A DNA stretch of 60,924 nt from Bacteroidales bacterium UBA4363 (GTDB lineage: Bacteria > Bacteroidota > Bacteroidia > Bacteroidales > Paludibacteraceae). Location of the stretch: NCBI GenBank assembly GCA_002393965.1, contig DGSL01000018.1, positions 1 through 60,924 on the forward strand, in the 5' to 3' direction. The position numbers and the translations under genes were made by a program. Positions 797 to 23,750 of this stretch are shown piece by piece. The notes below the pieces were generated by a model. That model saw only the letters and a list, made by a program, of their open reading frames with translations, ran no database searches and was not told the origin of the DNA. Position 1 is the first letter of the stretch. Each line of letters starts with the position of its first letter.

Positions 797-823
797 GACC
801 TCCACCAACTGGTGGCAGAGGTC
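797..823 (-). repeat. Hairpin element H1
   Basis: 27-nt element. On the minus strand the arms pair over 11 positions around a 5-nt loop, with two G-U wobbles. The same two pairs would be C-A and A-C mismatches in plus-strand RNA, so the structure is kept only in the direction in which the genes are transcribed. It is followed by the T-rich stretch TTTGTTTTCTTTGCA and then, 33 nt after the hairpin, by the ATG of the gene at 138-764. It lies about 70 nt after the stop of the DnaE-like gene. It could be an intrinsic terminator, a leader structure or a module boundary. Confidence 0.8.
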
Positions 824-892
824 AAAGGAAAAATCATTATCAATAGAATTTTTGCGAAATATCTACATGCTGAACTACAAATAATAATGGAA

Positions 893-3355
893 TTAGTCTG
901 TATTATACTTCTCGAAGACTTGTTTGAACTCTTCTGGATAATTGGCTTTCAAATAAGCCATCTGATAGGCCAGCCAAGTGTAGCAAACAGCATGAGACTT
1001 TTGGTAAGTGTACATACCTTTAGCCTCCATTTCATTCCATAACTTTTCAAGGGCATTCTTTTTGTGTCCGTTCTTTATGCCACCTTCTATGAATTTAGGC
1101 TTCAGAACAGAAAGCACATCCATTTTCCTTTTACCGAGAGCATGTCTTAGCAAGTCACTCTCACCCCAACTAAAACCAGCGATCAAACGAGAAAGATTCA
1201 TTATCTGTTCTGGATAAACAATGATACCATATGTATTCTGAAGGTACTTTTCCATACAAGGGATGATGTACTTTATTACTTTCTTTGATTTTTTGTGCTT
1301 GACGAGTGTTGGTATATCTGTTGGTATATCTTCCATCGACTCCGGTCGATACATACAGTTCAAAATGACCAAATCCTCAAAACATGTAGGATGAAGTTTT
1401 TGCAAGTATTTTTGCATCTCTTTTGAACTGAACAGAAACACGTCATCGGTTTGGCCTGTTTGGAAAAGTTCCATCGTCTTCTCATCATCAATCGGAATCG
1501 TTTCAATATCGAAATCCTTATCATAGTGAACTTTGACACTCGCACATATATCCCTCATATGGGAAAGTGTTTCAAGACCAAGGAAATCAAATTTTATAAG
1601 ACCAGACGACTCCACATTCCATCCATCGTATTGAGTACAATTCACTATTTGTTCATTACCCTTTAAATCTTTTATGGAACAAGTTGAAATAGGTGCCCAA
1701 TTAGACACTGGCTCGTCAGCAACAACAAACCCACAAGCATGGACACCTAATCCACAGACCTTCCTCTCTAACACAGCCACATTTGCAATTGCGTCACGCA
1801 AACTTGGACCAGCCTTTCGAATAGCTTTTCTTATCTCTGGTTCATATTTGATGTAATTCTTTATAGAAAGCCAAGAATAACCTGATAGGATTTCTTTAAT
1901 AGCCAGAGTCTCAGGAGTATGCATTTGGTTTGCCCTTGCTACCGTATTGAATGCATTAGCTGTTGAGAATGCGCGGAAAGAAACTACATGAGCGCAGCAT
2001 TCCTTGCCATATTTTTGTTGAAGCCATTCAAGGATACGTTCTCTTCCTTCCCAGTCGAAGTCGATATCAATGTCTGGGAACAACGTGCCTTCTGGACTTA
2101 GGAAACGTTCAAAAAGTAAATCATGCTTCAATGGGTCAATCTTAGTAATGCCTAAGCAATAACATACGAGGCTGCCAGCGGCTGATCCGCGTCCAGGACC
2201 GACCCATACTCCAAGCTCAGATTGGGCAGTATTGACTACATCTTGTAGAAAGAGGAAATAGCCAGAAGCAGTTCTCTGCTTGATGATTTGCAGTTCAAAC
2301 TTCAGCCTATCAGAAACATCTTCAGGAAGCGATTCTCCATATATCTGTTTTGCTTTAGCAAAAGAAAGGTATTCCAGATAGTTGTCCTCCTTTTCCCTTC
2401 TCTCATTCCCGAACCCATCAGGAATGCTAATAGCAGGAACAATGGGAGCATGGCGTATGTCATAGGATTCAACCTTGTCAAAGATTTCCATTGTATTCTC
2501 CAATGCTTCAGGGACATCAGAGAACAACTCGCACATTTCTTTTCTGCTTTTCAACCAGCGGGATTGAAGTGTATCTGTTTTAGCAAATTCATCCACAGTC
2601 TTTCCTGTAGCATAGCATTGCTGGATATTGTAAACTGCCAAATCCTTAGGAGCAATATAACGAACATCATTGGTGGCTACAACCTTCACACCATATTCTT
2701 TCGCTTTCTGAGTTAGAACAGCATTAACCTTTTGCTGTTCAAGCATCAAGTCACTCGGAGTGTCGCTCTTTAAGTCATAATCAGCTGTACGCTGTAATTC
2801 CAGATAATAATCCTCCCCAAAAGTCTGCTGATACCATTTGATAGTCGCATCAAGCCCTGCAATGTCATCGCTTACTACATGGGAATATACTTCGCTGCCA
2901 ATACCACCTGAGAGGACGACCAGTCCTTCATGGTGTTTCTCCAAATCCGCACGGTCTGTTCGAGGGCTTCCATAGAAACCGTCAGTCCATGAATTGCTTA
3001 CAATCTTAATGAGGTTCTTATAGCCTGTCAAATTCTTGGCAAGAACAGTCAGATGGAACCCTTCCAAATCCTCGTGACCATCTTTTTTGTCCTTAGATCC
3101 ATTCTTAGCCACATATAGCTCACACCCAATAATAGGTTTGAAAGGCTTCTTGCCGTTCTCTTGTCTTTCTTTGTTGATTTGGCTGACATCGTCGAAAAAC
3201 TCCATGATACCAAACATATTGCCATTATCAGTAATAGCAATGCCTGGCATTCTGTCTTTGATGGCTGCATCCACCAATTTCCTGATACTTGCACATCCAT
3301 CATTTATTGAATAATGGGAATGTACATTCAAATGTACGAATCTAAAAGCTTTCAT
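893..3355 (-). CDS. DnaE-like DNA polymerase III alpha subunit, short accessory form (820 aa)
   Basis: Family C DNA polymerase. The N-terminal PHP domain is visible (HLNVHSHYSINDG, near residue 8), and the palm carries PDIDIDFDWEGRERI near residue 427 and FDFLGLETLS near residue 586. These match the three catalytic aspartates of bacterial DnaE. The protein ends shortly after the fingers segment containing QKSHAVCYTWLAYQMAYLK, so it lacks the helix-hairpin-helix, clamp-binding, OB and tau-binding region. Usual DnaE is about 1,100-1,200 aa. It is the only gene between H2 and H1 and starts 39 nt after the H2 hairpin. It is unlikely to be the main replicase; a repair or conflict role is inferred. 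Confidence 0.85.
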   Translation of the reverse strand: MKAFRFVHLNVHSHYSINDGCASIRKLVDAAIKDRMPGIAITDNGNMFGIMEFFDDVSQINKERQENGKKPFKPIIGCELYVAKNGSKDKKDGHEDLEGFHLTVLAKNLTGYKNLIKIVSNSWTDGFYGSPRTDRADLEKHHEGLVVLSGGIGSEVYSHVVSDDIAGLDATIKWYQQTFGEDYYLELQRTADYDLKSDTPSDLMLEQQKVNAVLTQKAKEYGVKVVATNDVRYIAPKDLAVYNIQQCYATGKTVDEFAKTDTLQSRWLKSRKEMCELFSDVPEALENTMEIFDKVESYDIRHAPIVPAISIPDGFGNERREKEDNYLEYLSFAKAKQIYGESLPEDVSDRLKFELQIIKQRTASGYFLFLQDVVNTAQSELGVWVGPGRGSAAGSLVCYCLGITKIDPLKHDLLFERFLSPEGTLFPDIDIDFDWEGRERILEWLQQKYGKECCAHVVSFRAFSTANAFNTVARANQMHTPETLAIKEILSGYSWLSIKNYIKYEPEIRKAIRKAGPSLRDAIANVAVLERKVCGLGVHACGFVVADEPVSNWAPISTCSIKDLKGNEQIVNCTQYDGWNVESSGLIKFDFLGLETLSHMRDICASVKVHYDKDFDIETIPIDDEKTMELFQTGQTDDVFLFSSKEMQKYLQKLHPTCFEDLVILNCMYRPESMEDIPTDIPTLVKHKKSKKVIKYIIPCMEKYLQNTYGIIVYPEQIMNLSRLIAGFSWGESDLLRHALGKRKMDVLSVLKPKFIEGGIKNGHKKNALEKLWNEMEAKGMYTYQKSHAVCYTWLAYQMAYLKANYPEEFKQVFEKYNTD

Positions 3356-3394
3356 GTTATATCACTATTATTGTTTTTGTGCAAAGTAAATCTG

Positions 3395-3421
3395 AACTTA
3401 CGCCAATAGGTGGCATAGGCC
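3395..3421 (-). repeat. Hairpin element H2 (diverged copy)
   Basis: Diverged copy of the H element upstream of the DnaE-like gene. On the minus strand about 10 of 11 stem pairs survive. One pair that is C-G in the other copies is A-U here, a compensatory change, and three are G-U. The conserved downstream TTTACTTTGCAC follows, and the DnaE start lies 39 nt further on. Confidence 0.65.
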
Positions 3422-3541
3422 CGAAATAACAACTAAATATCATGTGTAATTATGATTCAAACTGTAGATTATTTGCTATGCCGTGATCTCCTCTATCAGT
3501 TGTTTAGCCCTTTGCTCAACAAATTACATTTAGCAATAGGA

Positions 3542-4303
3542 CTATTTTTTTCTAATAGAAACAGTGAATTCTATGATATGCTCCCAATACAATTCACGAA
3601 TCCTTTTGAGAATAATCCAGTCACTAATGAAAAGATTATAATATTCATGAAAAACCTTTGCCATCAAGACTCTGAGTACATACCCCTCTCTCGCATACTT
3701 TATGATGGTATCATCCATGAAATCAGCTGGATATTCTTTTATGACACCTGTATGAATGTTGCTGAAACGATATGGTGCAGTTGAGCGTTTCCAACGATTC
3801 CAGTCATTTGCGTATTCACTTTTCTGTTTTTCTAATACCCTCTTTGCAAGAGAGGGCATGTTGAATGTGAATATGTCGTTAGGGCTTACATAACCCATAT
3901 CCAAGTATGGTAAAGAAGAATGTTTCTTCATAAAATCTTCACATGTTGTGATATCTATATGATATAGGTTATTACCAACAAGAACTGACATGAGATATAG
4001 TAGCAACAAGTCATAGGCCGACCATCCGTGCCATACAATAACTTTCTCGTAATGTGTATAATCCTTTGTTATGAATTCCTTTAATTGGTTGAAAATGACT
4101 ATTTTTTCTTGTAATTCCAAACTATCGAGAGACATTGCAGACAGCATTAGTTCTGTGTCCGAGAAATCCTTTGGAATATAATTGCATGAAAAATCGACTG
4201 GAAGATAAATAACCTCATCCTCTATCCCCATCCCGTAAAAGGCTTGTTTCAGAGTCCCTCTGTAACAAGCAGAACTGACCACGTGAAGAGTTCTTTCTTT
4301 CAT
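3542..4303 (-). CDS. DUF1835-like protein, 253 aa
   Basis: The N-terminus (LHVVSSACYRGTLKQAF, from residue 6) resembles the start of DUF1835 proteins, where a short strand is followed by a small-residue turn and a helix. A later segment (VIVWHGWSAYDLLLLYL, near residue 90) matches the family's conserved WxGxxAxDxL region. The biochemical function of the family is unknown to me. No signal peptide or membrane span. It stands alone between H3 and H2, with its ATG 69 nt after the H3 hairpin. I am moderately sure of the family and cannot state a function. Confidence 0.6.
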   Translation of the reverse strand: MKERTLHVVSSACYRGTLKQAFYGMGIEDEVIYLPVDFSCNYIPKDFSDTELMLSAMSLDSLELQEKIVIFNQLKEFITKDYTHYEKVIVWHGWSAYDLLLLYLMSVLVGNNLYHIDITTCEDFMKKHSSLPYLDMGYVSPNDIFTFNMPSLAKRVLEKQKSEYANDWNRWKRSTAPYRFSNIHTGVIKEYPADFMDDTIIKYAREGYVLRVLMAKVFHEYYNLFISDWIILKRIRELYWEHIIEFTVSIRKK

Positions 4304-4372
4304 TTTAGTTTGATTTTAATTTTTGTACACCAATAGCTGTTAATATAAGATTTATGCTGCAAAGGAAACAAA

Positions 4373-4399
4373 GACCTCTGCCAATTTGTGGCAGAGGTC
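4373..4399 (-). repeat. Hairpin element H3
   Basis: Perfect 11-bp inverted repeat (GACCTCTGCCA and its complement) around a 5-nt loop, followed on the minus strand by TTTGTTTCCTTTGCA. It lies 69 nt upstream of the DUF1835-like gene and about 67 nt after the stop of the gene at 4467-5327. Confidence 0.8.
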
Positions 4400-4466
4400 T
4401 GAGGGAAATGAAATTTCTTTTGAAATTTATGCGGTTGAGATTTTACAGTAATATCTTCGCAAAAGA

Positions 4467-5327: not shown

Positions 5328-5366
5328 AACACAAACGTTTTAACTGATAGTTTCTATATTCAACTT

Positions 5367-5466: not shown

Positions 5467-5482
5467 CGTCCGCTTCTCTGAT

Positions 5483-7524: not shown

Positions 7525-8247
7525 TCACTCCCCTGGAATAACGGCACGTACAGAATAACCGTTTTCGCGGAAACCGCCGTCGTAGTTGCTCGCGTTGTCT
7601 GATGTAAACATGACGACACACGCGTGTTCCGATCCGCTGGGATCCAGCGACGAGGACCAATAGAGGCCGTAAGGCCCAGCGTCGTCGAGGAGGGCACCAT
7701 TGAAGCCGCGTTCGCCAGCAGCAGGCAGAAAAATGTGGGCATCATCCAAAGAATAAGAAGCAGATGGCTTTTTATATTCGTTATCCCATACTGAACCCTT
7801 ATCAGCTTCCGCCTTTGCTTTATAAACAATACATCCTGCCACTCCACTACCATTATAGTCTTCTGTCCACTCCCAGTAGCACTCATTGCGAAGTTCCATT
7901 TGTTGCACCATTGTCGGCATCATCCACTTGCCGCCCCAGTTGACGTATGCGGCGTCATCCTCAAGGTCGAGAGTGGTCTTGTAGTCTACGAAACCGTTTT
8001 CGCCATCTCTGCGGACTGTATTGTATTTTGTGAGCTTGAAAGTTTCGTGTTCGTGCGACTTGTACTTATAATTGAGAAAACTATATCCTTCTTTGGGTTT
8101 CACCTCGCCCCAAGCAAAATAATCGCCAATTTCTTCCGGCTTAGTTGCACCGATGTTGCAAGTCGCCCACTTAGTCCCTGTAGGCAAACCGAGGTCAACC
8201 CATTCGTGACCGTTTTCTGTACCAATAAAATTCTTCATGTCATTCAT
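7525..8247 (-). CDS. FISUMP / C-type-lectin-like domain protein, 240 aa
   Basis: The protein opens with GHEWVDLGLPTGTKWATCN, a hallmark of the Fibrobacter major paralogous (FISUMP) domain common in Bacteroidetes. It ends with WSSS and a C-terminal GYSVRAVIPGE, typical of this formylglycine-enzyme or lectin-like fold. No signal peptide is visible from this start, which is unusual for a family that is often secreted, so it may be a domain-only or truncated copy. The function is unknown; ligand binding is typical of the fold. Related folds are targets of diversity-generating retroelements, but no reverse transcriptase is in the window. It is in the same repeat-bounded module as the BspA-like gene. 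Confidence 0.7.
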   Translation of the reverse strand: MNDMKNFIGTENGHEWVDLGLPTGTKWATCNIGATKPEEIGDYFAWGEVKPKEGYSFLNYKYKSHEHETFKLTKYNTVRRDGENGFVDYKTTLDLEDDAAYVNWGGKWMMPTMVQQMELRNECYWEWTEDYNGSGVAGCIVYKAKAEADKGSVWDNEYKKPSASYSLDDAHIFLPAAGERGFNGALLDDAGPYGLYWSSSLDPSGSEHACVVMFTSDNASNYDGGFRENGYSVRAVIPGE

Positions 8248-8407: not shown

Positions 8408-8471
8408 TTGCCATAATTTGAAAGTTTTTAGAGTTAATGAAATAATTGAATCACGATACAAAGAAAACAAA

Positions 8472-8498
8472 GACCTCTGCCAATTTGTGGCAGAGGTC
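8472..8498 (-). repeat. Hairpin element H4
   Basis: Perfect 11-bp stem identical to H3 (GACCTCTGCCA arms, 5-nt loop), followed on the minus strand by TTTGTTTTCTTTG. Unlike H1, H2, H3, H5 and H7 it is not close to a start codon. The LRR/FISUMP module now lies downstream of it, and a PLD gene fragment lies about 29 nt upstream in transcription order. Confidence 0.8.
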
Positions 8499-12642: not shown

Positions 12643-14301
12643 TTACATGCAAAAACCTATTTTCTTTGTCCCTTTGGTTTCCAGTCTTTCGCTGTCACAA
12701 TAAACGGTCAACTCTTCCACAATGTTCCCTGACTCACCATGGAGGATGTTTCCAATCGTATAATGTCTGGCAATATTTTCTATCTGACCGCCACTGAAAT
12801 CATACTTTGTGGCTAAAATTCGAACATCCTCTTCCTTCAGAACTGGTATCATTTCACGCCACATACTCATACGAGCCTCTGTGGTAGGTTTCTCGAACTT
12901 GATTTTATAGAGGAATCGTCGTTCAAAAGCTTTGTCCATGTTTTGTGCCAGATTGGTTGTGGCAATGAGGATTCCGTCTAGTGTTTCCATTTCTTGAAGA
13001 ATGATATTTTGGATAGAGTTCTCCATCTTGTCAATAGCTCTCTCGGCTCCCTCCTGACGTTTACCAATGATTGCATCAGCCTCGTTGAATAAGAGAATGG
13101 GGGTCATACGACACTCTTTTGCTTTAGCCCGATAATTGTCGAATACTTGCTTTATGTTCTTCTCGCTCTCGCCTACCCACATGCTCTTAATTTGGGATAT
13201 ATTGACTTGCATAATGTCACGACCCGTTTGTCTTGCAAGTTGTAACACAGTTTCGGTCTTGCCTGTTCCGGCAGAACCATAGAAGAGGCAAGTAAAGCCA
13301 CAACGGAACCCCGAGTCTTTCATGCGTGTTCGGATTTGTTTGTATTGTACGTCATCCAGTAGTCCGCCTAATTCTTCAATCTGGGAGCTTAATTTGTCGC
13401 CATAGAACAAACTCTTTGGTACTATTTCCTCGGACTTAATCATATCGCCACGTGCCTTGCTTTGATTCAAGGAGGAAAGGTTGAGTTCTGCAAACAATTG
13501 ACGTTTGGCTTCTACTGTCATATGGAAAGATTCCCTGTCAACAAATCCGTCGTCGTTGTTGTACTCTATCATCTTTTCTGTAAGAAGTATATGTTCTCCA
13601 TCATTAAGATATGACCTCATTCTGTTCCAGCAGCGTTTCTCATAAAGGAAATCGAGATCGCGGTACCTGATATTGTCATCATTGTTGTTCACAAAAAGAT
13701 GAGAGAAGAGAATCAGCATCATTGTATCAACCTCAGACATGTTGTAACTCCGTACCTTCTGAACATAAAGTAGCTGGCTGTTACAATTGAACAGATGCCT
13801 TATCTTTTCAACAGTAGCTTCATAAGTCAATTCGCCATCTTTCCGCAAATCAAACACATCCTCTATCTCTCCGAACAACTCCCGACATGAAAGGCCAGAA
13901 CAGTCTTTAGGAATGTACTTCTCATTGTTCTTAAAAGCCTCTACAACCTCTATGGGAACCCTATAGGTGATAGGGTTACCATCACGACTGCATCTGATTA
14001 GTTCTCTTTTTTCCAGAACATCAATCTCCTGCATATACCTAATTATTCTTGTTGTTCGACAATCCAGGAACTTGCCGAAGTCGCTTATGGTTATGCTGGT
14101 ATTATCACTGTTGTCTACAAACAGTGCCATCATCATACTCTGCTCCTTGGTGAGTTCCATCTTTTCAGCCACATATTTAATATATTTGTCAGCCTTACGA
14201 TAAAAGTCACTACTAAGCCCTGAACCCTTTGCTTTTTCCACAATCTGCTCAACTGCTGTGAGCAAATCAAGTTTCTTCCTTGCTGCCATTTTCTTATACA
14301 T
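12643..14301 (-). CDS. AAA+ ATPase with N-terminal winged-helix-like region, 552 aa
   Basis: The C-terminal AAA domain has Walker A GSAGTGKTE (near residue 340), Walker B ILLFNEADAI (near residue 400) and the arginine-finger region AFERRFLYKI, of the classic FtsH/Vps4 clade. Walker B has N where D is usual (FNEADA in place of FDEADA). The N-terminal 300 residues contain a helix-turn-helix-like segment (ITISDFGKFLDCRTTRIIRY). I use MYKK at 14301. The longer frame would translate through the H5 hairpin, which sits 40 nt upstream, and an inner ATG (MAARKK) at 14289 is possible. The substrate is unknown; remodelling of DNA-bound proteins is inferred. Confidence 0.8.
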   Translation of the reverse strand: MYKKMAARKKLDLLTAVEQIVEKAKGSGLSSDFYRKADKYIKYVAEKMELTKEQSMMMALFVDNSDNTSITISDFGKFLDCRTTRIIRYMQEIDVLEKRELIRCSRDGNPITYRVPIEVVEAFKNNEKYIPKDCSGLSCRELFGEIEDVFDLRKDGELTYEATVEKIRHLFNCNSQLLYVQKVRSYNMSEVDTMMLILFSHLFVNNNDDNIRYRDLDFLYEKRCWNRMRSYLNDGEHILLTEKMIEYNNDDGFVDRESFHMTVEAKRQLFAELNLSSLNQSKARGDMIKSEEIVPKSLFYGDKLSSQIEELGGLLDDVQYKQIRTRMKDSGFRCGFTCLFYGSAGTGKTETVLQLARQTGRDIMQVNISQIKSMWVGESEKNIKQVFDNYRAKAKECRMTPILLFNEADAIIGKRQEGAERAIDKMENSIQNIILQEMETLDGILIATTNLAQNMDKAFERRFLYKIKFEKPTTEARMSMWREMIPVLKEEDVRILATKYDFSGGQIENIARHYTIGNILHGESGNIVEELTVYCDSERLETKGTKKIGFCM

Positions 14302-14341
14302 TTTTGGTTCATGTGAAGTTTTATGGTGCAAAAAAAACAAA

Positions 14342-14368
14342 GACCTCCGCCAACTGGTGGCAGAGGTC
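14342..14368 (-). repeat. Hairpin element H5
   Basis: 11 stem pairs on the minus strand, one a G-U wobble that would be C-A in plus-strand RNA. It is followed by TTTGTTTTTTTTGCA and, 40 nt on, by the ATG of the AAA+ ATPase. It lies about 47 nt after the stop of the gene at 14416-14970. Identical to H6 over the 27 nt. Confidence 0.8.
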
Positions 14369-14415: not shown

Positions 14416-14970
14416 TCATGTCCAATTTATCCAAAACTCATCAAATATATCACTTCCGCTTGATTCTATTATTTTGTTATCTCCAAACATGGCTGAAGTC
14501 ATATCGTCCCACCCATATACTTCATATCCATAGCCTTTATATTCTTCGTTTTCCCAACTCTCTTTACATGAGAGAATCACATAATGTCTTTTAGACTCTT
14601 TGAAATGTTCATCAAGAAAATTATCAAAATAGATTTTGTATCGATTCAATTGGTCATCATGAAGGTGGGAATAATATTTGTTTTCTATGAGCACGTCATG
14701 ACTGACACCGTTAATAGTTGCTCTTACCCATAAATCAATCTTGGCTTCTTGTTTCCAAGTCTCAACAACTACATCGTCTTCAGGTTTTATCTTTTGTTGA
14801 ATGATTAAACCCAATAAACGTCTGCTATACATATAGAGCCTTTCTTTTCCGGTTTCACTGCTACACTCATTTTGCGCCCTTCTTAATGTCCAAGACACAA
14901 CATAGTCCATGATCGTCTCACAATGTCCATCTTTCCCTTCGGTAGAATCTACCATAAATCGTACTGCCAT
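14416..14970 (-). CDS. PD-(D/E)XK nuclease superfamily protein, 184 aa
   Basis: The motif KIDLWVRATINGVSHDVLIE (about residues 75-94), continued by NKYYSHLHDDQLNRYKIYF, gives the D...ExK active site and following QLxRY helix of the PDDEXK_4-type family. These are metal-dependent nuclease folds seen in restriction and defence loci. An N-terminal helix and a C-terminal acidic region complete a single domain. It is the only intact gene between H6 and H5, followed about 47 nt later by H5. The fragment at 15035 lies upstream. Confidence 0.75.
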   Translation of the reverse strand: MAVRFMVDSTEGKDGHCETIMDYVVSWTLRRAQNECSSETGKERLYMYSRRLLGLIIQQKIKPEDDVVVETWKQEAKIDLWVRATINGVSHDVLIENKYYSHLHDDQLNRYKIYFDNFLDEHFKESKRHYVILSCKESWENEEYKGYGYEVYGWDDMTSAMFGDNKIIESSGSDIFDEFWINWT

Positions 14971-15201: not shown

Positions 15202-15228
15202 GACCTCCGCCAACTGGTGGCAGAGGTC
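15202..15228 (-). repeat. Hairpin element H6
   Basis: Same 27 nt as H5. This copy lacks the downstream T-rich stretch: the conserved TTTGTTTTCTTTGCA is replaced by the start of a broken UDG-like gene (ATTTTCAAACAG). It sits 29 nt after the stop of the PLD gene at 15258. The sharp change at its edge marks a recombination point. Confidence 0.8.
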
Positions 15229-15257: not shown

Positions 15258-15770
15258 TTATGCGATTGGGTCTGTGCAGAAATCTCTACGCTTGCATTTT
15301 TTGCAATGTTTTCCCATCCATACTTCATCGAACTGGTTCATTGCTTGTTCGACAATTTCTGTGTCATCTGTAAGGATGCCAGCTTCAAAATTGCGTTTAT
15401 CAGCGCCTTTCATGCCGAGACCCGCACCTGTCAGGTTGGCACTGCCAATATAAACCACCTTCCCATCGAAAACAATCATCTTGAAATGCACACGCGGACA
15501 AAGCACACGCTCCAAGCGATCATAGAGCACTGGATATTTGTCAAAGTCTTCCCGAAAGTTCGGTCCTGGCTCTTTTGCGTGAATGAGTCTCACCTCCACA
15601 CCACGCCGAATGAGTTGGGCGATAAGAGCAAGAAAAGGCTTCTTCTCTTTGCCCACCTCGACATAAACGTCTTTTATGTCAGCCGTTCCAATCCAAAGCA
15701 TGTGCTTCACGGATTGCACCCGTGAAAGCACCTCTTTGTAATGGGCGGAGTTGGAGATAAAGATGAGCAT
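15258..15770 (-). CDS. PLD-like nuclease, single HKD motif, 170 aa (last gene of Nmad operon)
   Basis: Near-duplicate of the protein at 9584-10096. The HKD motif HFKMIVFDGKVVYIGSANLT and the C-terminal cysteine pairs are intact, so it is probably an active dimeric nuclease. It starts 4 nt after the stop of the DUF262 gene at 15775 and is the last gene of the eight-gene operon, followed by H6. The position suggests that it is an effector of that operon. The copies differ by only a few residues although a central DNA patch of about 84 bp carries about 16 substitutions. Confidence 0.87.
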   Translation of the reverse strand: MLIFISNSAHYKEVLSRVQSVKHMLWIGTADIKDVYVEVGKEKKPFLALIAQLIRRGVEVRLIHAKEPGPNFREDFDKYPVLYDRLERVLCPRVHFKMIVFDGKVVYIGSANLTGAGLGMKGADKRNFEAGILTDDTEIVEQAMNQFDEVWMGKHCKKCKRRDFCTDPIA

Positions 15771-15774
15771 AGAG

Positions 15775-18069
15775 CTACTCTTCTAATGTGGATTCACAAA
15801 TCTTTTCATTGCACTCTAAACAAACCGATTTGTCTGTGTCTGGGAATGCTTGAGCGATAAGGCAATCAAGTTTATGAAGAAAAGATTCTTTCGTTTCTTT
15901 CTCATCAATAGAAAAATAGAAATTGTTTTCTGGAGTGTCAGAGTTTTCTTGATTTTTTAGTTTTTTCCCTTCCCAATTATCGTTCATTAGACATACAGTG
16001 TTGTTTGAGTAGTATATAAAATAATACTGCTGCTTGTATTGGAAAAAAATATTTGAGCCATATAAGAAATTTGTTCCAGGAACTTTATCCTCATTGTTAA
16101 GCATAATCATATCATTAATCAGGACTCTATCTCTAATGCCCGAATCCAAAAAGACACCTTTTGCACTAGGATAAATCGCTTTGTGTCCGTGATATTGATA
16201 AATCCAAGATTTTGGAATTTTCTGTATTACAAAATCTAACAATTTAGTATTAGACAATTGATAAATGGTGTTTTGTGCAAAATCTTGTGAAGGTTTGCAT
16301 TCCAAAATATTTCTTTCTCCTACCATTAATTGGTATATAGGTCTTACTATATTATCATTTAATAAGTAATAACGCCAAGCCTCATCATTATTATTAAATA
16401 CACCTTTACTATTATGCCATAATAACTTCCAAAAATTTTCAGGAGAGAAACGGCTGATTAATGCTTTCAAAAGTTCTGCATTGTCAAAGGCTTTGTTCAT
16501 TGCCGACATATTAGGCTCTAAAATTTCTTTAAAATATGCTTTTGCATTGTTCCATTTACGATTAAAGACATCCTCCCCCCAATCATCTCCAATACTCTCT
16601 TTGGTAAACAAGAAACGAATAGCTCCTTTGAAAAAGGCGTATTTCTCAGCTTCGATGATGATTTCTTCCCAAGTTTTTCCATCCGAGCGTTGTTCTCCGT
16701 TAAGGATTTGTTTGGCTTTGGCGATTTCTTCTTTCAATTGGTCTGATATATTATCTTTAAATTTATTGTTAGAAAGACTTTCATAGAAAGTAGCAATATT
16801 GTTTTCGTGCTTAAATTTATATATCTCTCCTGCACGTTTACAATACGTAACAAAGTTATCATATTCCGAAACGTAGTTTTCTGCCATATTCCAAGCAAAT
16901 CTCATTGCTGATTCGACACCATCAAACAAGATATATGTAAAAATGACTGACAATAATTTGTATTCAGATTTGTCAGACACTTTAATTGTGTCTTTACTCC
17001 AATAAGGTTTTATTGTCGGCGCAATTGTCAAGGCATACGCCAAAGCAGGGAAAGCATTATCTAATTTCAATACTTTTTCTATTGGCTCAAATTGGATATA
17101 GTCAGCGTAGTTTTTGTCATTTTCTTCTTTTTTGTTAATTACCTTCAGATTTTCCGCAATTGTTTTTTCCTCTGATTCTTGTCCAAAGGCAGCCCAATAT
17201 CCCGACAAGAAGCGGACTATGAACTTGGCTATATTTACATCATATTTACTTGGGTTATCTTTATCCCAAAACGCAATCGCCCAATCTCTGTCCATAAAGA
17301 ACTTCCACTTCTCTTTGAAACTATCCTTTGGCGCAGCATTGTTTTCAGGGAACCATTTCGTTTCTACTTTATTGGTATCACGTAACAACTTTTCAATTTT
17401 GGATTTCAAATTTTCAAAAGCAGTCAATGGTTTGCCACGAGAGTTCATTTTCAGATAAAGATTCTCGTTCAGACCGTTGGATTCCAAATCAAAGAAAAAG
17501 AAAGTAACCTTATTCAGATTTGGATAGTCAGTTATTTCCTTACATTTTTCGTGAATGGCATCTAACATATTCAACATTCCTTCCACGGTCGGGTCTTTTT
17601 CCCAATAATTCATAAACCAGGAAGAATCCTTTATAACATCGGATACTTTTTTGTCTTTTTGGACAGTCCATTCTTCACTTGTAATGCTTTTGCAAAAGTC
17701 TGATGCAGCACGCCGTGTGTCGTAAGAGAATTTGGACAAATTAAGTTCTGTATTTGTTTTCCCTGCTTTTTGACCATAAAGAAACAACAAGAAAAGCGTT
17801 GTCAATCGTTGCTGACCATCGACAGGAATGAAACAGTTCATTTCTTTGCCGTCGATAATTCTTTTCTCATTAGAACCAAACACAAGGTCAAAGTGAACAT
17901 CTTTGTCACTGAAAATGTCAGTCAGCAAATTGTTTCTGACATCAGTTGCTTTTTTGTCAGTACGTCCTTGGGCATAATCACGCTGAATCATTGGAACCAG
18001 TATTTTATCATATTGCTCCAATAAATTAGAAAAGGTATATTCTTGATAATTTGATGTATTATTGCTCAT
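15775..18069 (-). CDS. DUF262 protein (GmrS-like), 764 aa
   Basis: The N-terminal DUF262 domain shows the ParB/GmrS-type nucleotidase motifs: LVPMIQRDYAQGR near residue 22 and FIPVDGQQRLTTLFLLFL near residue 82. These are the IxxxQRxYxW and DGQQRLTT signatures of type IV restriction factors such as GmrSD and BrxU. A clear C-terminal HNH motif is not evident; the C-terminus is cysteine-bearing (CLECNEKIC). The start MSNNTSNYQ at 18069 overlaps the stop of the upstream DUF262 gene by 11 bp, which indicates coupled translation. The pair likely works as a complex on modified DNA. Confidence 0.85.
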   Translation of the reverse strand: MSNNTSNYQEYTFSNLLEQYDKILVPMIQRDYAQGRTDKKATDVRNNLLTDIFSDKDVHFDLVFGSNEKRIIDGKEMNCFIPVDGQQRLTTLFLLFLYGQKAGKTNTELNLSKFSYDTRRAASDFCKSITSEEWTVQKDKKVSDVIKDSSWFMNYWEKDPTVEGMLNMLDAIHEKCKEITDYPNLNKVTFFFFDLESNGLNENLYLKMNSRGKPLTAFENLKSKIEKLLRDTNKVETKWFPENNAAPKDSFKEKWKFFMDRDWAIAFWDKDNPSKYDVNIAKFIVRFLSGYWAAFGQESEEKTIAENLKVINKKEENDKNYADYIQFEPIEKVLKLDNAFPALAYALTIAPTIKPYWSKDTIKVSDKSEYKLLSVIFTYILFDGVESAMRFAWNMAENYVSEYDNFVTYCKRAGEIYKFKHENNIATFYESLSNNKFKDNISDQLKEEIAKAKQILNGEQRSDGKTWEEIIIEAEKYAFFKGAIRFLFTKESIGDDWGEDVFNRKWNNAKAYFKEILEPNMSAMNKAFDNAELLKALISRFSPENFWKLLWHNSKGVFNNNDEAWRYYLLNDNIVRPIYQLMVGERNILECKPSQDFAQNTIYQLSNTKLLDFVIQKIPKSWIYQYHGHKAIYPSAKGVFLDSGIRDRVLINDMIMLNNEDKVPGTNFLYGSNIFFQYKQQYYFIYYSNNTVCLMNDNWEGKKLKNQENSDTPENNFYFSIDEKETKESFLHKLDCLIAQAFPDTDKSVCLECNEKICESTLEE

Positions 18070-19786
18070 TGCTAAAGAAGTTTTTAATAGTTTGTTCAAG
18101 TTTCTTTTTGTATGACTCTCTGTCCTTTTCATCCCAAAATGCCATTTGTTCAGGATTGTCAGAATAGAACTTCATAAAGACATTCATACTGCAAGCAGGT
18201 ATGAAGCTGCCTTGCTGATAATACTCTTGAAGTTTCTGTCTTTTTTCAAAAAAGAATTTATTACCAATTCCTTTGTTGTCGTGTTCCGTTAGAAGTGTTA
18301 AATTTTGGACACCCATCAATTCATCACCAACAGCAATAAACTTAGCCTTTGCTTCTTCAATGATATTTTTATTTTCATCAAAAAGTTTTTTTAGATTTTC
18401 GTCTTTACTGAAGGGCTCAATAGCTTTTTTCAAGTCTTCCTTTGGATTCTGTGGCGAGATATGCTCAACATTCCAATTATATGCATGAAGGTTAGCGAAT
18501 GAAAACTTGACAGCCTCTTGTGGCCTTTCATTTAGAGTTGCGATATTGAACAGCAGTAGTAAATTGAAAACCTTGGCTTTATTATCATCATACCTTAATT
18601 GCATAAAACCATCAGGATGATCAATGTGATTCTTACATTCATCGACAAGCCATTTCTTGAATTCTTTTTTTGACTTTTCTTCGCAGAACTTCTTGTAGAT
18701 TTCGCATAATGTTTTTCCTCCATTTGCGGCTCTATGATAGCCGATGAGATTGTACATTACAGAATCATTGAACCATCCTTCCATAATATAGAATACTTTT
18801 CTAACCTTTTCCCATATTATCTTTGATTCCTTGTAAGAATCTTCGCTTTTATTTCCATTAATCAAATCATTGAAATAGAAGAATGTTCTAAGAGGTTCTT
18901 CAGTACGATATTTGTGATTGTGCTCACTCGACTCAAGCATTAAATCAAACAGCAGATTGATGCAAGATGAGGGTTTCTCTTTATTACCTGCAAGAAAATA
19001 CCAGAAATCATCCTGCCGCAACGTACGTTCTATTTGGTCAAACTCATCGGCAAGCAAACGTTGCTCTACTTCGCGGTGTACAATATCTTCCTTGCCCACT
19101 TTATTCAAAAACAGAGCTTTGATAAGTTCTGCATTCGTAAGAGCGATTTTTCCAGAATTGAGATTGTTGAAAATATCGTGTTCTTGCCCTTCGGAAACTT
19201 CTCCTACATTATAGAAGATAAATTTTGTTTGCTCCAAAATCTTATCGCAAAACTTCTTAGTGTCTATTTCAATATTCTTAGGATTAATCCAATTTTTTTC
19301 TTCATTAGTTCGTTTCTCTATATGAATCCACCTATCAATGAAATATTTTGCACTCGTCAAATGGTATAATTCGATATTATCATTCTTAATCTCATCGCTC
19401 GAATCGCACTTTTCAATGTATGACTCTCGCTCATATTCTATGGACGGACACCCTTTATTCTTCAATGCTTTTAAAATCAAATAAATGGTAGTTAAACGCT
19501 GCTGTCCATCAATGACAATCCATTCCCCTTTAAGTATTTTTTTTACTTCATCGATTGAATTAACCTGCTTTATTTCTGCTAGCAAATCCTTTTCCCGCTC
19601 TTTTACGACTAATGGTTGAAGACAATAGAAATCACCATCAACACCCTTGCTGAACTCCAAAATATCATTTAGCAAGTTTTCAATTTGCAAGTCCGTCCAA
19701 CGGTATCCCCTTTGATACGACGGTATAAAGAACTTCATTTCAAGAAGTTCGCTAACTGATTTTAATTCAATTTTATTTTCTGCCAT
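18059..19786 (-). CDS. DUF262-DUF1524 (GmrSD-like) protein with HNH nuclease domain, 575 aa
   Basis: N-terminal DUF262 with FIPSYQRGYRWTDLQIENLL (near residue 18) and WIVIDGQQRLTTIYLIL (near residue 90). C-terminal DUF1524 HNH domain with NVEHISPQNP (near residue 437) and QNLTLLTEHDNKGIGNK, the expected His-His-Asn arrangement. Fused GmrSD proteins use nucleotide hydrolysis to cut DNA with modified bases. I take MAENKIEL at 19786; a start 17 codons upstream would overlap the previous gene. It follows the DnaQ-like stop by 20 bp. It is likely the main DNA-cutting subunit of the operon. Confidence 0.88.
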   Translation of the reverse strand: MAENKIELKSVSELLEMKFFIPSYQRGYRWTDLQIENLLNDILEFSKGVDGDFYCLQPLVVKEREKDLLAEIKQVNSIDEVKKILKGEWIVIDGQQRLTTIYLILKALKNKGCPSIEYERESYIEKCDSSDEIKNDNIELYHLTSAKYFIDRWIHIEKRTNEEKNWINPKNIEIDTKKFCDKILEQTKFIFYNVGEVSEGQEHDIFNNLNSGKIALTNAELIKALFLNKVGKEDIVHREVEQRLLADEFDQIERTLRQDDFWYFLAGNKEKPSSCINLLFDLMLESSEHNHKYRTEEPLRTFFYFNDLINGNKSEDSYKESKIIWEKVRKVFYIMEGWFNDSVMYNLIGYHRAANGGKTLCEIYKKFCEEKSKKEFKKWLVDECKNHIDHPDGFMQLRYDDNKAKVFNLLLLFNIATLNERPQEAVKFSFANLHAYNWNVEHISPQNPKEDLKKAIEPFSKDENLKKLFDENKNIIEEAKAKFIAVGDELMGVQNLTLLTEHDNKGIGNKFFFEKRQKLQEYYQQGSFIPACSMNVFMKFYSDNPEQMAFWDEKDRESYKKKLEQTIKNFFSNEQ

Positions 19787-19806
19787 AATGATGTATCTTT
19801 TCTTTA

Positions 19807-20298
19807 TTATAGAATTTCTCTCGCTATCCACGCACAAGCCTCTGCATCTGCCAATGCGTGATGATGATCTTCCAACTCATATCCACAGGCTGCGGCCACT
19901 GTTTGAAGTTGGTGATTTTCTAAATCAGGGAGCACTCGTCGTGAAACACAAAGGGTATCGTAAAACTCATAGTCAGGATAATCCATCTGATATACTCGAA
20001 ACACAGCCTTCAGACACCCTTCGTCAAAAGGCTTATTATGAGCGACAAGCGGTAAACCCTCTATCAGAGGTTCTATTTGCGCCCATACTTTCGGGAATAC
20101 TGGTGCATCCTCAGTATCTTCATGACAGAGACCATGAACCTGAGAACACCAATAGTTATAATAGTTCGGCTCTGGTTGGATGAGAGAGTAGAACGTATCT
20201 ACAATCTCACCATTTCGTACAATGACGATACCTACAGAGCATACGCTGCTGCGCTCATTATTGGCTGTTTCAAAATCTATAGCTGCAAAGTCCTTCAT
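19807..20298 (-). CDS. DnaQ-like 3'-5' exonuclease, 163 aa (in Nmad operon)
   Basis: DEDDh exonuclease with all catalytic positions present: IDFETANNE at residue 7, AHNKPFDEG near 89, HHALADAEA near 147. It is almost identical to the copy at 11853-12344. In the operon it lies between Nmad3-like (15 bp upstream) and DUF262-HNH (20 bp downstream), so it is expressed with a putative modification module and a modification-dependent nuclease. It could trim ends made by the nucleases. The truncated copy at 5367 shows that this gene is a frequent partner in the island. Confidence 0.88.
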   Translation of the reverse strand: MKDFAAIDFETANNERSSVCSVGIVIVRNGEIVDTFYSLIQPEPNYYNYWCSQVHGLCHEDTEDAPVFPKVWAQIEPLIEGLPLVAHNKPFDEGCLKAVFRVYQMDYPDYEFYDTLCVSRRVLPDLENHQLQTVAAACGYELEDHHHALADAEACAWIAREIL

Positions 20299-20313
20299 AT
20301 TGCTCTTTATTAC

Positions 20314-21111
20314 TTACTGTATGATTCGTTTTACCCATTCTATTATTTGAGGTGTTGCGTCCATTACGAATTCTTGACCTCTTCCTGCCGACTTAAAACA
20401 GTCATTCAACCATGATTTTGTATTATATGAGATAGAAACGTCCTTAAAATAATCTGGTAGATCCCAATATCTACGAGACATTCCATCTTTTGTTAGTACA
20501 CGGTCACGCCGAAAATCAAGAACATCGCAACCACTTAGCGACGGTTGAATTGACAGCATATTTGTCGGAAGAAAAATCGCGTTTTGATGAGATGCCCATG
20601 CGTCATTATACATAAAGTGAGGATGATCTTTAAGGAAGTCTGGAACATTCTCTTTTCGACTTATAATTTCGCCTATTTGCATGTACCCATAAATGATATG
20701 TGCATCCAATCCATCTTTCTTGTATTGAAGATGCCCATCAATGATAACAGTTTCTCTAAACCAACCAAAAAAAAGGAATATATCTCCTACAGATACTTTC
20801 TGATTGCGTAAATGAGAAAGTGCCGCATTCATTTGACCAAAAGCCGGTTGCCAGTTTGGTTGTCTCTTTTTGGAGTCTATCCTTAAATCTGGGTCTAAAT
20901 GGCATTTGCTACATATGTTGCATTCTGTCCTGGGATTCAATGATGAAATAATATCATAATAGCTCTTGCCATTCCACTGAAGCAACGAGAACATGTTGGA
21001 GTCTTCCTCGTTGGGAATAGGCAGAGACAGTAACGTGCCGTCAGGCATTATAGGACTTGCTTGCTTCCCTGCTGAGGAATCAAATCCCTTTCTACTTAAT
21101 ATTACTTTCAT
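20314..21111 (-). CDS. Nmad3-like (nucleotide modification associated domain 3) protein, 265 aa
   Basis: The N-terminus MKVILSRKGFDSSAGKQASP with DGTLLSLPIPNEE just after is the signature I know from Nmad3 proteins, which are linked to phage and bacterial DNA base modification. A CxxC pair with a nearby cysteine (CNICSKC, near residue 66), FLFFGWFRE (near residue 115) and IIYGYMQIGEI (near residue 138) follow. The family is thought to make or recognise modified nucleotides; its chemistry is not known to me. The start overlaps the Nmad2-like stop by 4 bp (ATGA). Confidence 0.75.
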   Translation of the reverse strand: MKVILSRKGFDSSAGKQASPIMPDGTLLSLPIPNEEDSNMFSLLQWNGKSYYDIISSLNPRTECNICSKCHLDPDLRIDSKKRQPNWQPAFGQMNAALSHLRNQKVSVGDIFLFFGWFRETVIIDGHLQYKKDGLDAHIIYGYMQIGEIISRKENVPDFLKDHPHFMYNDAWASHQNAIFLPTNMLSIQPSLSGCDVLDFRRDRVLTKDGMSRRYWDLPDYFKDVSISYNTKSWLNDCFKSAGRGQEFVMDATPQIIEWVKRIIQ

Positions 21112-21707
21112 ATCTTACCTTTTATTATTACTCTTCTGTCATTTTTGATAAAGCGAATGAACCTGTCATAATCATCAAGTACAAGTTTCTTGCATCGAGG
21201 AACTGTTACATTAAATACATCCTTTTCTATGTCAATGGCATTATCAACACCATAATAATAGAATTCCTCACATATCAAAACGTATTTACCACTTAGGTCA
21301 TGTATTATATCTTCTTTAGTGTGGTTGCTGTTGCTAACTTGCTCATAGTCATTATAATCATTCGGATTTGCAAGTAATGGCTTGTATATATTATCTCCTG
21401 AATCATATAATGACTTCATTCCTTTTATTTCATGTGGGTATTTCTCTGGATATTGTAGCCAGTATTCTGCAAACGTGAGTTTCTTTTGGATTCTTGCCAA
21501 ATAGATAAGTTGGGGATGGTCAAAAGAGTATATTCTGTCATTTTTTCCATGAACCACCTTAGCTGTCCATCCGGAAATCCAATCCCCAACTTGAGAACAA
21601 CGTCTAATGGTTGGCTTACAGATAGCCAGAGTTAAAACTCCATGATGTGGATTGGGGGCACTTTCTGTGTCCCAAGTCATCTTATAACAGTACAGATAGT
21701 TCTTCAT
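21108..21707 (-). CDS. Nmad2-like (nucleotide modification associated domain 2) protein, 199 aa
   Basis: The stretch APNPHHGVLTLAICKPTIRR with VGDWISGW just after (residues 17-45) is the Nmad2 signature, typically written as APNxxxGxLTLAxCKPxIRR and GDWI. Further conserved-looking parts are LIYLARIQKKLTFAEYW (near residue 67) and YVLICEEFYYYG (near residue 142). The family is associated with nucleotide modification; the reaction is unknown. It sits 3 bp after the unknown gene at 21711 and overlaps Nmad3-like, so the two are surely coupled. Confidence 0.75.
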   Translation of the reverse strand: MKNYLYCYKMTWDTESAPNPHHGVLTLAICKPTIRRCSQVGDWISGWTAKVVHGKNDRIYSFDHPQLIYLARIQKKLTFAEYWLQYPEKYPHEIKGMKSLYDSGDNIYKPLLANPNDYNDYEQVSNSNHTKEDIIHDLSGKYVLICEEFYYYGVDNAIDIEKDVFNVTVPRCKKLVLDDYDRFIRFIKNDRRVIIKGKI

Positions 21708-21710
21708 TTT

Positions 21711-22757
21711 TTATATATTAGTCTCTTCCAATCCTAAAATGTTGCTAAAAATCCAAAAGGGCAAAACAACATTACGGATGTGAAATTCATACCACTCCCA
21801 AAAACACTTCGCCACTTTTATTTTCAAGTTGCCAGTAATATGGAACACACCTTTGAAATCGGCAAGCACGAATACTTCTTCAGGACAGCTGTGTGCATAG
21901 AGCAAGAATTCACTTATGGCATTCTTCAGACCATCTATAAAACCTGCTTTATCAGGCATACTTATCGCATAACACTTTTCATATTGGCAGCTTGGTGAAT
22001 TGTCTGCAAAAACGATGTAAGTGGGTTCCCCATCTAAATCATACGATTCGCGGTCACGGAGGTATGTTAATGTCATGTCGTCAGTAAACATTTCATCTAT
22101 TTCTTTATATGCCCAGGGTGCAGTTTTTTTCCTCTGGGGCCGCCCCCCAATGAAAGTTGGTGCATCCATCGCTAAGGATGCTCGTTCTCCTATTTTTTCA
22201 AACGATGGTCCACCCTGACAAAATCCATCTGCAGCCCATCTTACAAAGAAAGGATCAAACTCCTTAAACATAATCGGATTCACATCCACAAATGCGGTAC
22301 CTACCTTATGAACGACACCACTTTGATTAAACTGAATATCGCAATTATCCCCAATCATTCCAGGAATGTCAGTATTACCAAAATCAAAATATCTCACGAC
22401 AGACGTATAGCCTTGATACGTGACAACATCTCCAGTAAAGATTTCTTGTCCTATATCGTCTTTCAAGCGGGTTTCAACTCCTGCGAAGATGACAGGAACT
22501 GTTGACCACAGCGTATGCGACATTTGGTCGGGTTTATGGTATGGCGTATAATTAAGGTTCTTGGTTATGAGCATCATTACATCACCATTAAAATAGTAGT
22601 CGCCAAAATATGCATAGTCAAACCTACCCATAGGGTTGATGAACCGTACACGTCGGCTTAACAAAAAGTGCTTGAGGTCCTTACGCTCAATGATGTCACG
22701 ATAATAGACCCGGCAAAGGTCCTGAATTCCTCTGAAACTAAAATTGACATTATCCAT
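21711..22757 (-). CDS. Hypothetical protein, 348 aa (second gene of Nmad operon)
   Basis: I do not recognise this family. It starts 2 bp after the WYL gene stop and ends 3 bp before Nmad2-like. The segment IGQEIFTGDVVTYQGYTSVV (near residue 103) resembles the EIxxGDxV turn of YopX-like beta proteins, which may mean a small barrel. A C-terminal helical region (WEWYEFHIRNVVLPFWI) ends the protein. No signal peptide. Tight linkage suggests a partner of the Nmad proteins. Confidence 0.65.
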   Translation of the reverse strand: MDNVNFSFRGIQDLCRVYYRDIIERKDLKHFLLSRRVRFINPMGRFDYAYFGDYYFNGDVMMLITKNLNYTPYHKPDQMSHTLWSTVPVIFAGVETRLKDDIGQEIFTGDVVTYQGYTSVVRYFDFGNTDIPGMIGDNCDIQFNQSGVVHKVGTAFVDVNPIMFKEFDPFFVRWAADGFCQGGPSFEKIGERASLAMDAPTFIGGRPQRKKTAPWAYKEIDEMFTDDMTLTYLRDRESYDLDGEPTYIVFADNSPSCQYEKCYAISMPDKAGFIDGLKNAISEFLLYAHSCPEEVFVLADFKGVFHITGNLKIKVAKCFWEWYEFHIRNVVLPFWIFSNILGLEETNI

Positions 22758-22759
22758 AG

Positions 22760-23692
22760 TTAATCCTCCTTATATTTGTTCCACATTCTCTTTATCTTAC
22801 CTGCCATCTCTTTGCGGAGCCAGTAGGGTTCAAGTACCTCCATGTCTTCACCATTCCAAAGAAGTTCCTGCTGGAAATCGAACTCTGGACGGAGATTAAA
22901 GGTAAAGATGCTGTACTCTTCGTTGCGCTCTATCTCTTCCTGCGACTCGTGCATCTTCAGGTCACGGATGTAGTTGGCCTTTCCTGCTGATACTTTCAGT
23001 TTAACTGGTTGTATCTTCACAGACTGTTCGACAATGATTCCAAAGCAGCCGTCAAAGAAATCCTCTGCCGTCCAGTCCTTCGGCATTTCAAAAGTCTCAT
23101 CTGTTGCATGAAGATATTTGATCCGATCGAGGGAATAGATGCGTGGCCCTTTCTCATAATAATAGGAATAAGTGCTACGAGCCACCATGTACCAACGCTG
23201 CCGGAAAAGTTTTACACAATACGGCTGAACATCGTAGTTGTTCTCCTCATCCTTCCAATAACTGTGATAAGTCATGTTTAGCACCCGGTTTTCCTTCATG
23301 GCTTCGATGATGGGCTGAAGATAGTTCTGACCAGACGGAACGTATTCCAGAATAATACGGTCTTTGATGCTCTGGCTGTTTGCCAAGGCATTGCTCACAC
23401 AGAAAGTATTGTAGAGCCAGGAACGGAGTCCGTTCTTGCTAATATCCTCTTCATTCTCAATATAATATCGGTACTCGGCACGCCCTTCATTGGCGATGTC
23501 GATACCGAACATGTCATGGATGACATATCTCCAGTTGTCGAAGGTACGTTTGGGGATATCCTCACCTCTGCTAATGTCATCGCGAAGCCATAGCTCGTTC
23601 AGTTCTTTGAACGAGATCTTACGTTTGCGATAGATGGTCTCTATCACCCAGACGTATTTAGTTATCAAACTTTGTCCTCTTTCGTTGTCCAT
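22760..23692 (-). CDS. WYL-domain regulator, 310 aa
   Basis: An N-terminal winged-helix-like part (LITKYVWVIETIYRKRKISF, residues 8-27, then a second helix with WLRDD) is followed by a WYL domain with RQRWYMVARSTYS and RIYSLDRI (about residues 165-190). A C-terminal extension (LLWNGEDMEVLEPYWLRKEM) is typical of WYL regulators. WYL proteins sense nucleic-acid or nucleotide ligands and often control defence operons. I use MDNERGQ at 23692; a start at 23713 would lie closer to H7. It is the first gene of the operon, and H7 lies 31 nt upstream, so it may control this and other H-preceded genes. Confidence 0.85.
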   Translation of the reverse strand: MDNERGQSLITKYVWVIETIYRKRKISFKELNELWLRDDISRGEDIPKRTFDNWRYVIHDMFGIDIANEGRAEYRYYIENEEDISKNGLRSWLYNTFCVSNALANSQSIKDRIILEYVPSGQNYLQPIIEAMKENRVLNMTYHSYWKDEENNYDVQPYCVKLFRQRWYMVARSTYSYYYEKGPRIYSLDRIKYLHATDETFEMPKDWTAEDFFDGCFGIIVEQSVKIQPVKLKVSAGKANYIRDLKMHESQEEIERNEEYSIFTFNLRPEFDFQQELLWNGEDMEVLEPYWLRKEMAGKIKRMWNKYKED

Positions 23693-23723
23693 ATTTCTAT
23701 GATTTTTCTGCAAAAAAAAGACA

Positions 23724-23750
23724 AGGGTACGCCAAACTGTAGCAGAGGTT
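23724..23750 (-). repeat. Hairpin element H7 (most diverged copy)
   Basis: Degenerate copy upstream of the WYL operon. The inner five stem pairs survive on the minus strand (two as G-U), while the outer stem is lost. The downstream T-rich tract with TTTTTTTTGCAG is kept, and the ATG of the WYL gene follows 31 nt later. Confidence 0.55.

Follow-up and report, generated by a model that had tools for sequence, protein, structure and literature searches.

Inverted repeats along the island

The 60,924 bp of Bacteroidales bacterium UBA4363 analysed here (contig DGSL01000018.1), referred to in the following as the window, include an island of minus-strand genes, along which seven copies (H1-H7) of a 27 bp element are distributed. 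Each copy is an 11-5-11 bp inverted repeat on the minus strand, with its gene lying downstream on the same strand (Table 1). H7 directly precedes a gene coding for a WYL-domain regulator. Judging from the sequence, the seven copies are very probably DNA operators of this one regulator, for which a role as an activator similar to DriD is preferred. An earlier note on the same DNA, in which the element was taken for an RNA hairpin, had missed both that H7 is the regulator's own copy and that a promoter lies at a fixed offset from the repeat.

Five copies, starting at positions 797, 4373, 8472, 14342 and 15202, fit the pattern GACCTCTGCCA-N5-TGGCAGAGGTC with 0-2 mismatches, while no match was obtained in 100 dinucleotide shuffles; H2 (3395) and H7 (23724) are genuine but diverged copies. 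A half-site matrix, built from H1-H7 themselves and containing no flanking sequence, assigned a score of at least 19.7 to all seven, against no match scoring 14 or more in shuffled DNA. The positions given in the earlier note are thus borne out, as is the distance of 31-70 nt claimed there between repeat and ATG, measured at 32, 39, 69, 40 and 31 nt for H1, H2, H3, H5 and H7, respectively. In the genome of origin, which comprises 1.78 Mb and is about 89% complete, a search allowing up to 3 mismatches gave matches in this contig alone.

Position of the repeats relative to the promoter

The -7 box recognized by the Bacteroidota sigma factor is reported to have the consensus TAnnTTTG (PMC7366714). 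On the minus strand, a box of the form T[AT]NNTTTG starts exactly 5 nt past the 27-mer in six of the seven copies. As placed by this box, the 27 bp site would span roughly -44 to -18, over the -33 region and upstream of the expected start.

The matrix was used to scan 33 segments (719,896 bp) from the genome of origin and 31 other genomes. The scan returned 65 sites scoring at least 14, against none in shuffled DNA. Of 64 distinct contexts, 48 had a -7 box at offset 5, and no other offset between 0 and 49 had one in more than 2 of them. As the flank is absent from the matrix, the register of the box is an independent test. The 16 sites lacking a box at offset 5 comprise H6, six sites preceding regulator genes, two whose box is shifted to offset 4 or 6, and another seven, most of low score and some within genes; such low-scoring matches, including those in coding sequence (e.g. 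G110:972), were retained as boxless sites in the count of 64.

A held-out set was collected by scanning named genomes for the regulator protein, taking 80 loci from the 148 candidates listed. Eight were contigs already used and were dropped, leaving 72 loci (995,776 bp), some of which share a genome. They contain 108 sites, against none in shuffled DNA, and the box is found at offset 5 in 100 of them, with at most 3 boxes at any other offset. All 100 sites with a box have the same orientation as the regulator gene. Both sets therefore have the arrangement of a site kept at constant distance from the -10/-7 element and lying over the -35/-33 region, the overlap with -33 following from position.

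The same register was found around more distant regulators. Of 45 loci whose regulators have about 36-54% identity, 29 offered a -7 box no more than 70 nt from the start, the other 16 having no usable box. The 27-mer that ends 5 nt ahead of this box has, on average, 6.1 palindromic positions out of 11, compared to 2.1-3.8 at 39 other offsets. Sixteen of the 29 loci reach at least 7 palindromic positions at offset 5, and at most 3 do so at other offsets. The bases of these sites differ (e.g. AACATATGCCT-N5-TGGCACATGTT), while the geometry and often a TGCC/GGCA core are kept. A looser search of the distant loci for extra copies with a box yielded 15 candidates, some of them likely due to chance.

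The boxes themselves differ between classes of promoters. Target boxes begin with TT in 29 of 34 cases in the first set and in 30 of 39 in the held-out set, being mostly TTNNTTTG and not TANNTTTG; as T[AT] at offset 5 was the criterion by which target sites were oriented, boxes with another second base are missing from these counts. In promoters of the regulator itself, the box begins with TA in 9, CA in 4 and TT in 1 of 15 cases of the first set, and with TA in 48 of 52 held-out ones. Upstream of 687 other genes, TA (248) prevails over TT (95). Targets thus tend to have a non-optimal element, with T at the second base where A is favoured elsewhere. No canonical -33 TTTG at some 20 nt ahead of the -7 box was recognized when the H copies were inspected by eye; little weight was given to this, because a further member of the phylum is reported to have yielded no -33 element either (PMC7366714). 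A scan for sigma-70 promoters (55 found, 47.7 expected) is uninformative for Bacteroidota.

As a separate observation, five loci (L118, L119, L124, L125, L130) have an additional operator-like copy whose -7 box is immediately followed by an inverted repeat or near-repeat of about 30 nt. In several of these it reads GCAGCGTGATTC...GAGTCACGCTGC and would open the transcript, possibly as a leader hairpin or the start of a small RNA.

Association with a WYL regulator

The protein encoded behind H7 matches the Pfam families WYL (1.1e-13) and WCX (9.3e-11); an N-terminal winged helix-turn-helix (wHTH) domain, not detected by Pfam, is visible in the structure model (pLDDT 83.9) and in the fold matches. 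Among 49 homologues, residues Q165-Y168 and D189-R190 do not vary. The best fold match of the model is DriD, and the PDB sequence matches that could be identified are DriD and PafBC, so that DriD is the closest in fold and sequence among solved structures. BrxR and CapW were recovered by Foldseek (E 9e-6 to 6e-4 and 2e-6 to 2e-5, respectively); a phmmer search of PDB sequences gave no BrxR or CapW match at E 0.1.

A site lies upstream of 64 of the 71 held-out regulator genes having at least 90 nt of upstream DNA. At the genome level, the palindrome (up to 3 mismatches) occurs in 15 of 23 genomes with a regulator homologue of at least 60% identity, one of which (G326) was included via a homologue fragment on another contig, and in 9 of 335 others (p=4.5e-15); six of these nine have single matches with 3 mismatches. 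In a whole-genome search, the exact pattern GCCA-N5-TGGC-N12-TWNNTTTG gave 48 matches, distributed over 21 of the 22 regulator genomes; the 22 genomes without a homologue at E 1e-20 had none, and as most of these belong to other genera, phylogeny is only partly controlled. With 1 mismatch the pattern is found in regulator-free genomes also, at about the level of a reversed-pattern control. Allowing up to one mismatch, the six matches in the genome of origin are H1-H5 and H7. In the regulator genomes, several of the exact matches are on other contigs and may belong to paralogues.

Searches with the regulator returned 23 records from plasmid proteins, all below 60% identity, and 9 from phage proteins, including one unannotated contig at 73%. 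In the set viral_contigs, seven contigs (L216-L222) have the exact sequence CCTCTGCCA-N5-TGGCNGAGG. No WYL regulon of this type in Bacteroidota was found among titles and abstract beginnings, in searches that left most subscription papers outside.

Conservation of the paired positions

The earlier note had proposed that the element is conserved as minus-strand RNA, citing G-U pairs in H1, H5 and H6 and a compensatory A-U pair in H2. These pairs are indeed present on the minus strand. The element is nevertheless not maintained as a hairpin. H7 has 5 of 11 Watson-Crick pairs, and H2 has 7, along with 3 G-U and 1 C-A. The 61 distinct sites preceding regulator genes read AACCTCTGCCA-N5-TGGCGTACCCT or a variant of it; in the majority of them no pair forms at positions 2, 3, 4 and 6, while both halves are conserved. 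Of the pairs in such sites, 47 of 198 are plain mismatches in the first set, as are 128 of 506 in the held-out one. The structure is thus broken where the sequence is kept.

The 58 distinct sites preceding other genes, which include three held-out sites (L188, L197, L198) that are own-type by sequence, contain 50 G-U pairs, 27 of them at position 7. Outside this position 23 G-U pairs are found against 25 C-A, so that no strand is favoured. Held-out non-regulator sites alone, with positions pooled, give 36 G-U against 12 C-A, which superficially favours the RNA reading. The right half-site takes C or T at position 7 also in 48 of the 61 own sites, which form no hairpin. The A-U pair of H2 is isolated, a right T at position 6 occurring in 13 sites and a left A in one. 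Neither covariation nor a strand-specific tolerance of G-U, as expected of a structured RNA, was therefore observed; failure of the pairs to covary in more copies had been named in the earlier note as the finding that would speak against its own proposal.

A role as intrinsic terminator draws on a consensus scan of positions 1-18000, in which 25 candidates were found against 11.6 expected, with H1, H3, H4 and H5 at the top of the list. The downstream tail TTTGTTTTCTTTGCA, which the earlier note described as following the arms, does follow these four copies with 1-2 changes. It is largely the promoter with its -7 box; in relatives only the box, not the T-rich tail, is retained, and the 5 nt between repeat and box vary. 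Stem and T-tract are limited to the four copies, and the regulator-own sites are stemless. No family was detected at gathering score in an Rfam scan. As for a leader or attenuator, the repeat is upstream of the conserved -7 box and so would be absent from the RNA started there. The RNA hairpin, leader and terminator readings were rejected because of missing covariation, the promoter register, unpaired own sites and the variable U-tract, and a function of the element as RNA is considered extremely improbable. Shared control of the island units, which the earlier note had included among its possible meanings, survives without the RNA mechanism. A combined use, in which the operator would also terminate upstream read-through where arms are strong and the gap is T-rich, is suggested by the strong stems followed by T-rich DNA at H1, H3, H4 and H5; as this combination is not general in relatives, it is regarded as rather unlikely.

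Genes behind the predicted operators

The predicted operators and the genes behind them are reported in Table 1.

Table 1. Predicted operators, promoter boxes and associated genes in the window
Feature	Position	Strand	Remark
208-aa gene, first behind H1	138..764	-	No Pfam or PADLOC match; homologue behind operator in G329
H1 promoter -7 box	784..791	-	TTNNTTTG type
H1 operator	797..823	-	27 bp, 11-5-11 inverted repeat; -7 box at offset 5
PHP-DnaE-like polymerase, behind H2	893..3355	-	820 aa; also behind operator in relatives
H2 promoter -7 box	3382..3389	-	
H2 operator	3395..3421	-	Diverged
DUF1835/DUF3658 protein, behind H3	3542..4303	-	
H3 promoter -7 box	4360..4367	-	
H3 operator	4373..4399	-	Perfect arms
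240-aa gene, behind H4	7525..8247	-	Same arrangement in G342 (85% identity)
H4 promoter -7 box	8459..8466	-	
H4 operator	8472..8498	-	Perfect arms; PLD 3'-end remnant 34 nt upstream
AAA+ ATPase, behind H5	12643..14301	-	Weakly IetA-like (PADLOC)
H5 promoter -7 box	14329..14336	-	
H5 operator	14342..14368	-	
PDDEXK_4 gene, downstream of H6	14416..14970	-	
H6 operator	15202..15228	-	No -7 box; PLD gene end 32 nt upstream
Genes behind the regulator	15258..22757	-	348-aa unknown, Nmad2, Nmad3, DEDDh exonuclease, two GmrSD-type, PLD nuclease
wHTH-WYL-WCX regulator	22760..23692	-	310 aa; predicted to bind H1-H7
Regulator promoter -7 box	23711..23718	-	
H7, operator of the regulator itself	23724..23750	-	Asymmetric

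The PHP-DnaE-like polymerase ends at the point at which DnaE continues into its C-terminal domains; it is matched by PHROG DNA polymerase families. H6, which lacks a box, may be the remnant of a degraded unit. A BspA-type leucine-rich repeat gene with 69-nt units is found inside the island at positions 5571-7262.

The genes chained behind the regulator-own sites include a DEDDh exonuclease in 15 of 21 cases and a GmrSD-type protein in 9 of 21, with variable genes between; three of the 21 chains were left empty by the simple gene caller used. The first gene behind the other sites is an AAA+ protein in 10 and a PHP-DnaE in 5 of 38 cases of the first set, three of the latter as short open frames. 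Among 39 held-out non-regulator sites, it is DnaE-like in 7 (two of them weak, at 24% identity), a member of the 208-aa gene family in 6, an AAA+ protein in 4 and a regulator in 1, and was unmatched, cut or not found in 21.

Comparison with PADLOC and NCBIfam revealed partial likenesses to DrmC (PLD), IetA (AAA+), HEC-06/Orf5/SspE (one GmrSD) and PDC-S48 (exonuclease). No complete known system is called on this basis among the island genes, and no BREX gene was recognized among them. Gene content is what suggests that the island serves in defence.

Possible exchange between units

Ten of 39 non-regulator operators have the 3' end of a PLD gene at a distance of 31-42 nt on their upstream side, compared to 0 of 21 regulator-own ones. 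In two of the ten cases, H4 and one in G337, only a remnant of 13-15 codons is left, while H6 directly follows a complete PLD copy. Such placement fits homologous exchange at shared ends. The earlier note had also named a boundary for cassettes among the possible meanings of the repeat, and a function as recombination site moving the units could draw on the PLD ends, including the two remnants, and on the duplication of PLD and exonuclease genes. The recurrent PLD ends stand, as homology for ordinary recombination; the promoter register, not the junction, is what is conserved, and PLD end plus operator homology are enough for homologous exchange. A dedicated recombination site is accordingly held to be very unlikely.

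The PLD nuclease gene occurs twice in the window (9584-10096 and 15258-15770, 94% DNA identity over 300 nt), in addition to the 3'-end remnant at 8526-8564. Full copies of the DEDDh exonuclease lie at 11853 and 19807, and a third, degenerate 3'-end copy is located at 5365-5453. Two further places, 5485-5557 and 8357-8407, have paired short repeats around GTACTTTTCGTTTT and resemble each other at 96% over 51 nt.

In a Parabacteroides distasonis isolate, a regulator of 92% identity is accompanied, behind an operator, by a match to the AAA+ gene of 96% over 211 residues, cut by the end of the locus. These matches point to horizontal transfer. Carriers whose records lack a MAG label include Parabacteroides distasonis An897 (L149), Prevotella sp. 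P5-108 (L141) and Prevotellaceae bacterium HUN156 (L201).

Comparison with known regulators

DriD binds a pseudo-palindrome, ATACGAC-N7-GTCGTAT, in sites located over -35, at one distance from -10 at five targets, and these targets have poor promoters (PMC12340889). The regulator described here shares with DriD the wHTH-helical linker-WYL-WCX fold, the 7 bp between inner half-site edges (here TGCC-N7-GGCA), the constant distance of the site from the -10 element (here -7), the overlap of the -35 region and the poor target promoters. It differs in sequence (about 20% identity) and in the bases of its site, the promoter is of the Bacteroidota -7 type and the targets are defence-like genes of one island. 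The sensing of single-stranded DNA (ssDNA) is a property of DriD, and may extend to the present regulator. PafBC, a mycobacterial WYL activator which acts by sigma adaptation, with a -26 motif and the housekeeping sigma factor (PMC11804915), is similar in its sequence match and, if the regulator described here is an activator, in its sign of regulation; it differs in being a heterodimer, in which PafB reads the -26 motif and PafC meets sigma domain 4.

Repressors are found among the related proteins as well. In E. fergusonii, BrxR recognizes an inverted repeat of 11 bp with a spacer of 5 bp, and its island contains a second box and a GmrSD enzyme (PMC9122601); in Acinetobacter, the BrxR half-sites are 5 nt apart and overlap -35 (PMC9122589). 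The repeats described here agree with the BrxR operators (11-5-11 or 10-5-10) in having half-sites of 10-11 bp spaced by 5 bp, a site ahead of the regulator's own gene and, as in E. fergusonii, further sites and GmrSD-type genes in the island. The BrxR proteins are described as repressors, with two sites reported versus seven here, and the sites of the two BrxR proteins are placed differently with respect to the promoter. CapW, a homodimeric WYL repressor of CBASS, also acts on a promoter palindrome, which overlaps -10 (PMC9122588), and represses the CBASS promoter region. RptR represses its own promoter in a defence island through three direct repeats with a TAGCTA core (PMC12255303); control of a defence island is the common trait, while RptR is a small regulator not described as WYL, and its repeats are direct.

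A repressor similar to BrxR or CapW could use the same DNA operators, blocking RNA polymerase until freed by a phage- or damage-derived ligand. Besides the BrxR geometry, the combination of strong target sites and a weaker own site would suit tight repression with autoregulation. The regulator is closer in fold and sequence to the activators DriD and PafBC; a strict 5-nt register, kept in distant homologues, exceeds what blocking requires, and target -7 boxes are off consensus. Repression is thus a credible but less probable reading, and activation of the DriD type is moderately favoured.

Proposed mechanism

Under the preferred reading, that of an activator similar to DriD, a dimer of the regulator would occupy each of the two-fold symmetric sites H1-H7, locked 5 bp upstream of the -7 box. 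The WYL domain would take a ligand, probably ssDNA generated by DNA damage or phage replication, and the ligand-bound regulator would dock beside sigma and aid RNA polymerase at weak promoters, as DriD and PafBC do. In this way, the regulator would control its own gene together with the exonuclease, the GmrSD pair and the PLD nuclease behind it and, via H1-H5, the units of the 208-aa protein, PHP-DnaE, DUF1835/3658, the 240-aa protein and the AAA+ ATPase.

Several observations weigh against this reading. H6 is without a -7 box, and in the six regulator-own sites of the first set counted as boxless the box is in register but one base off consensus. Seven of the 71 held-out regulator genes have no own site in the stretch tested; for three of them (L188, L197, L198) an own-type site with a box is found a few hundred nt further upstream. 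Convincing palindromes without a close regulator homologue occur in G291, where the best homologue is at 44%, and in G314 and G322, where none is found at E 1e-20; G314, which is 88% complete, has two of them with a -7 box. Full-length fold alignments are at about 10 A root-mean-square deviation, that is, the match is by domains. The orientation rule used for the target sites, mentioned above, is to be added to these points, and the 11-5-11 geometry, being shared with the operators of the repressor BrxR, would suit either sign of regulation.

A broader model may be advanced tentatively, with a chance somewhat short of even. In Bacteroidales, the 27 bp site, 5 bp before a weak -7 box, would form a portable promoter-operator cartridge, through which units join an island run by one ssDNA-sensing activator of the DriD type, being swapped by homologous recombination at PLD end and operator. 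If so, the island would change its weapons and yet keep a single switch, triggered by damage or phage. Little is known of the joint switching of multi-system defence islands. The repeat provides a tag, searchable by sequence, for units of the regulon, and would tie the 208-aa protein, DUF1835/3658 and the truncated PHP-DnaE to a regulator of the damage or phage type. Such a fixed register hints strongly that the unusual promoter of Bacteroidota is also served by the DriD mechanism and, being shared with distant homologues, would represent a general geometry of activation by WYL proteins for the sigma factor of this phylum.

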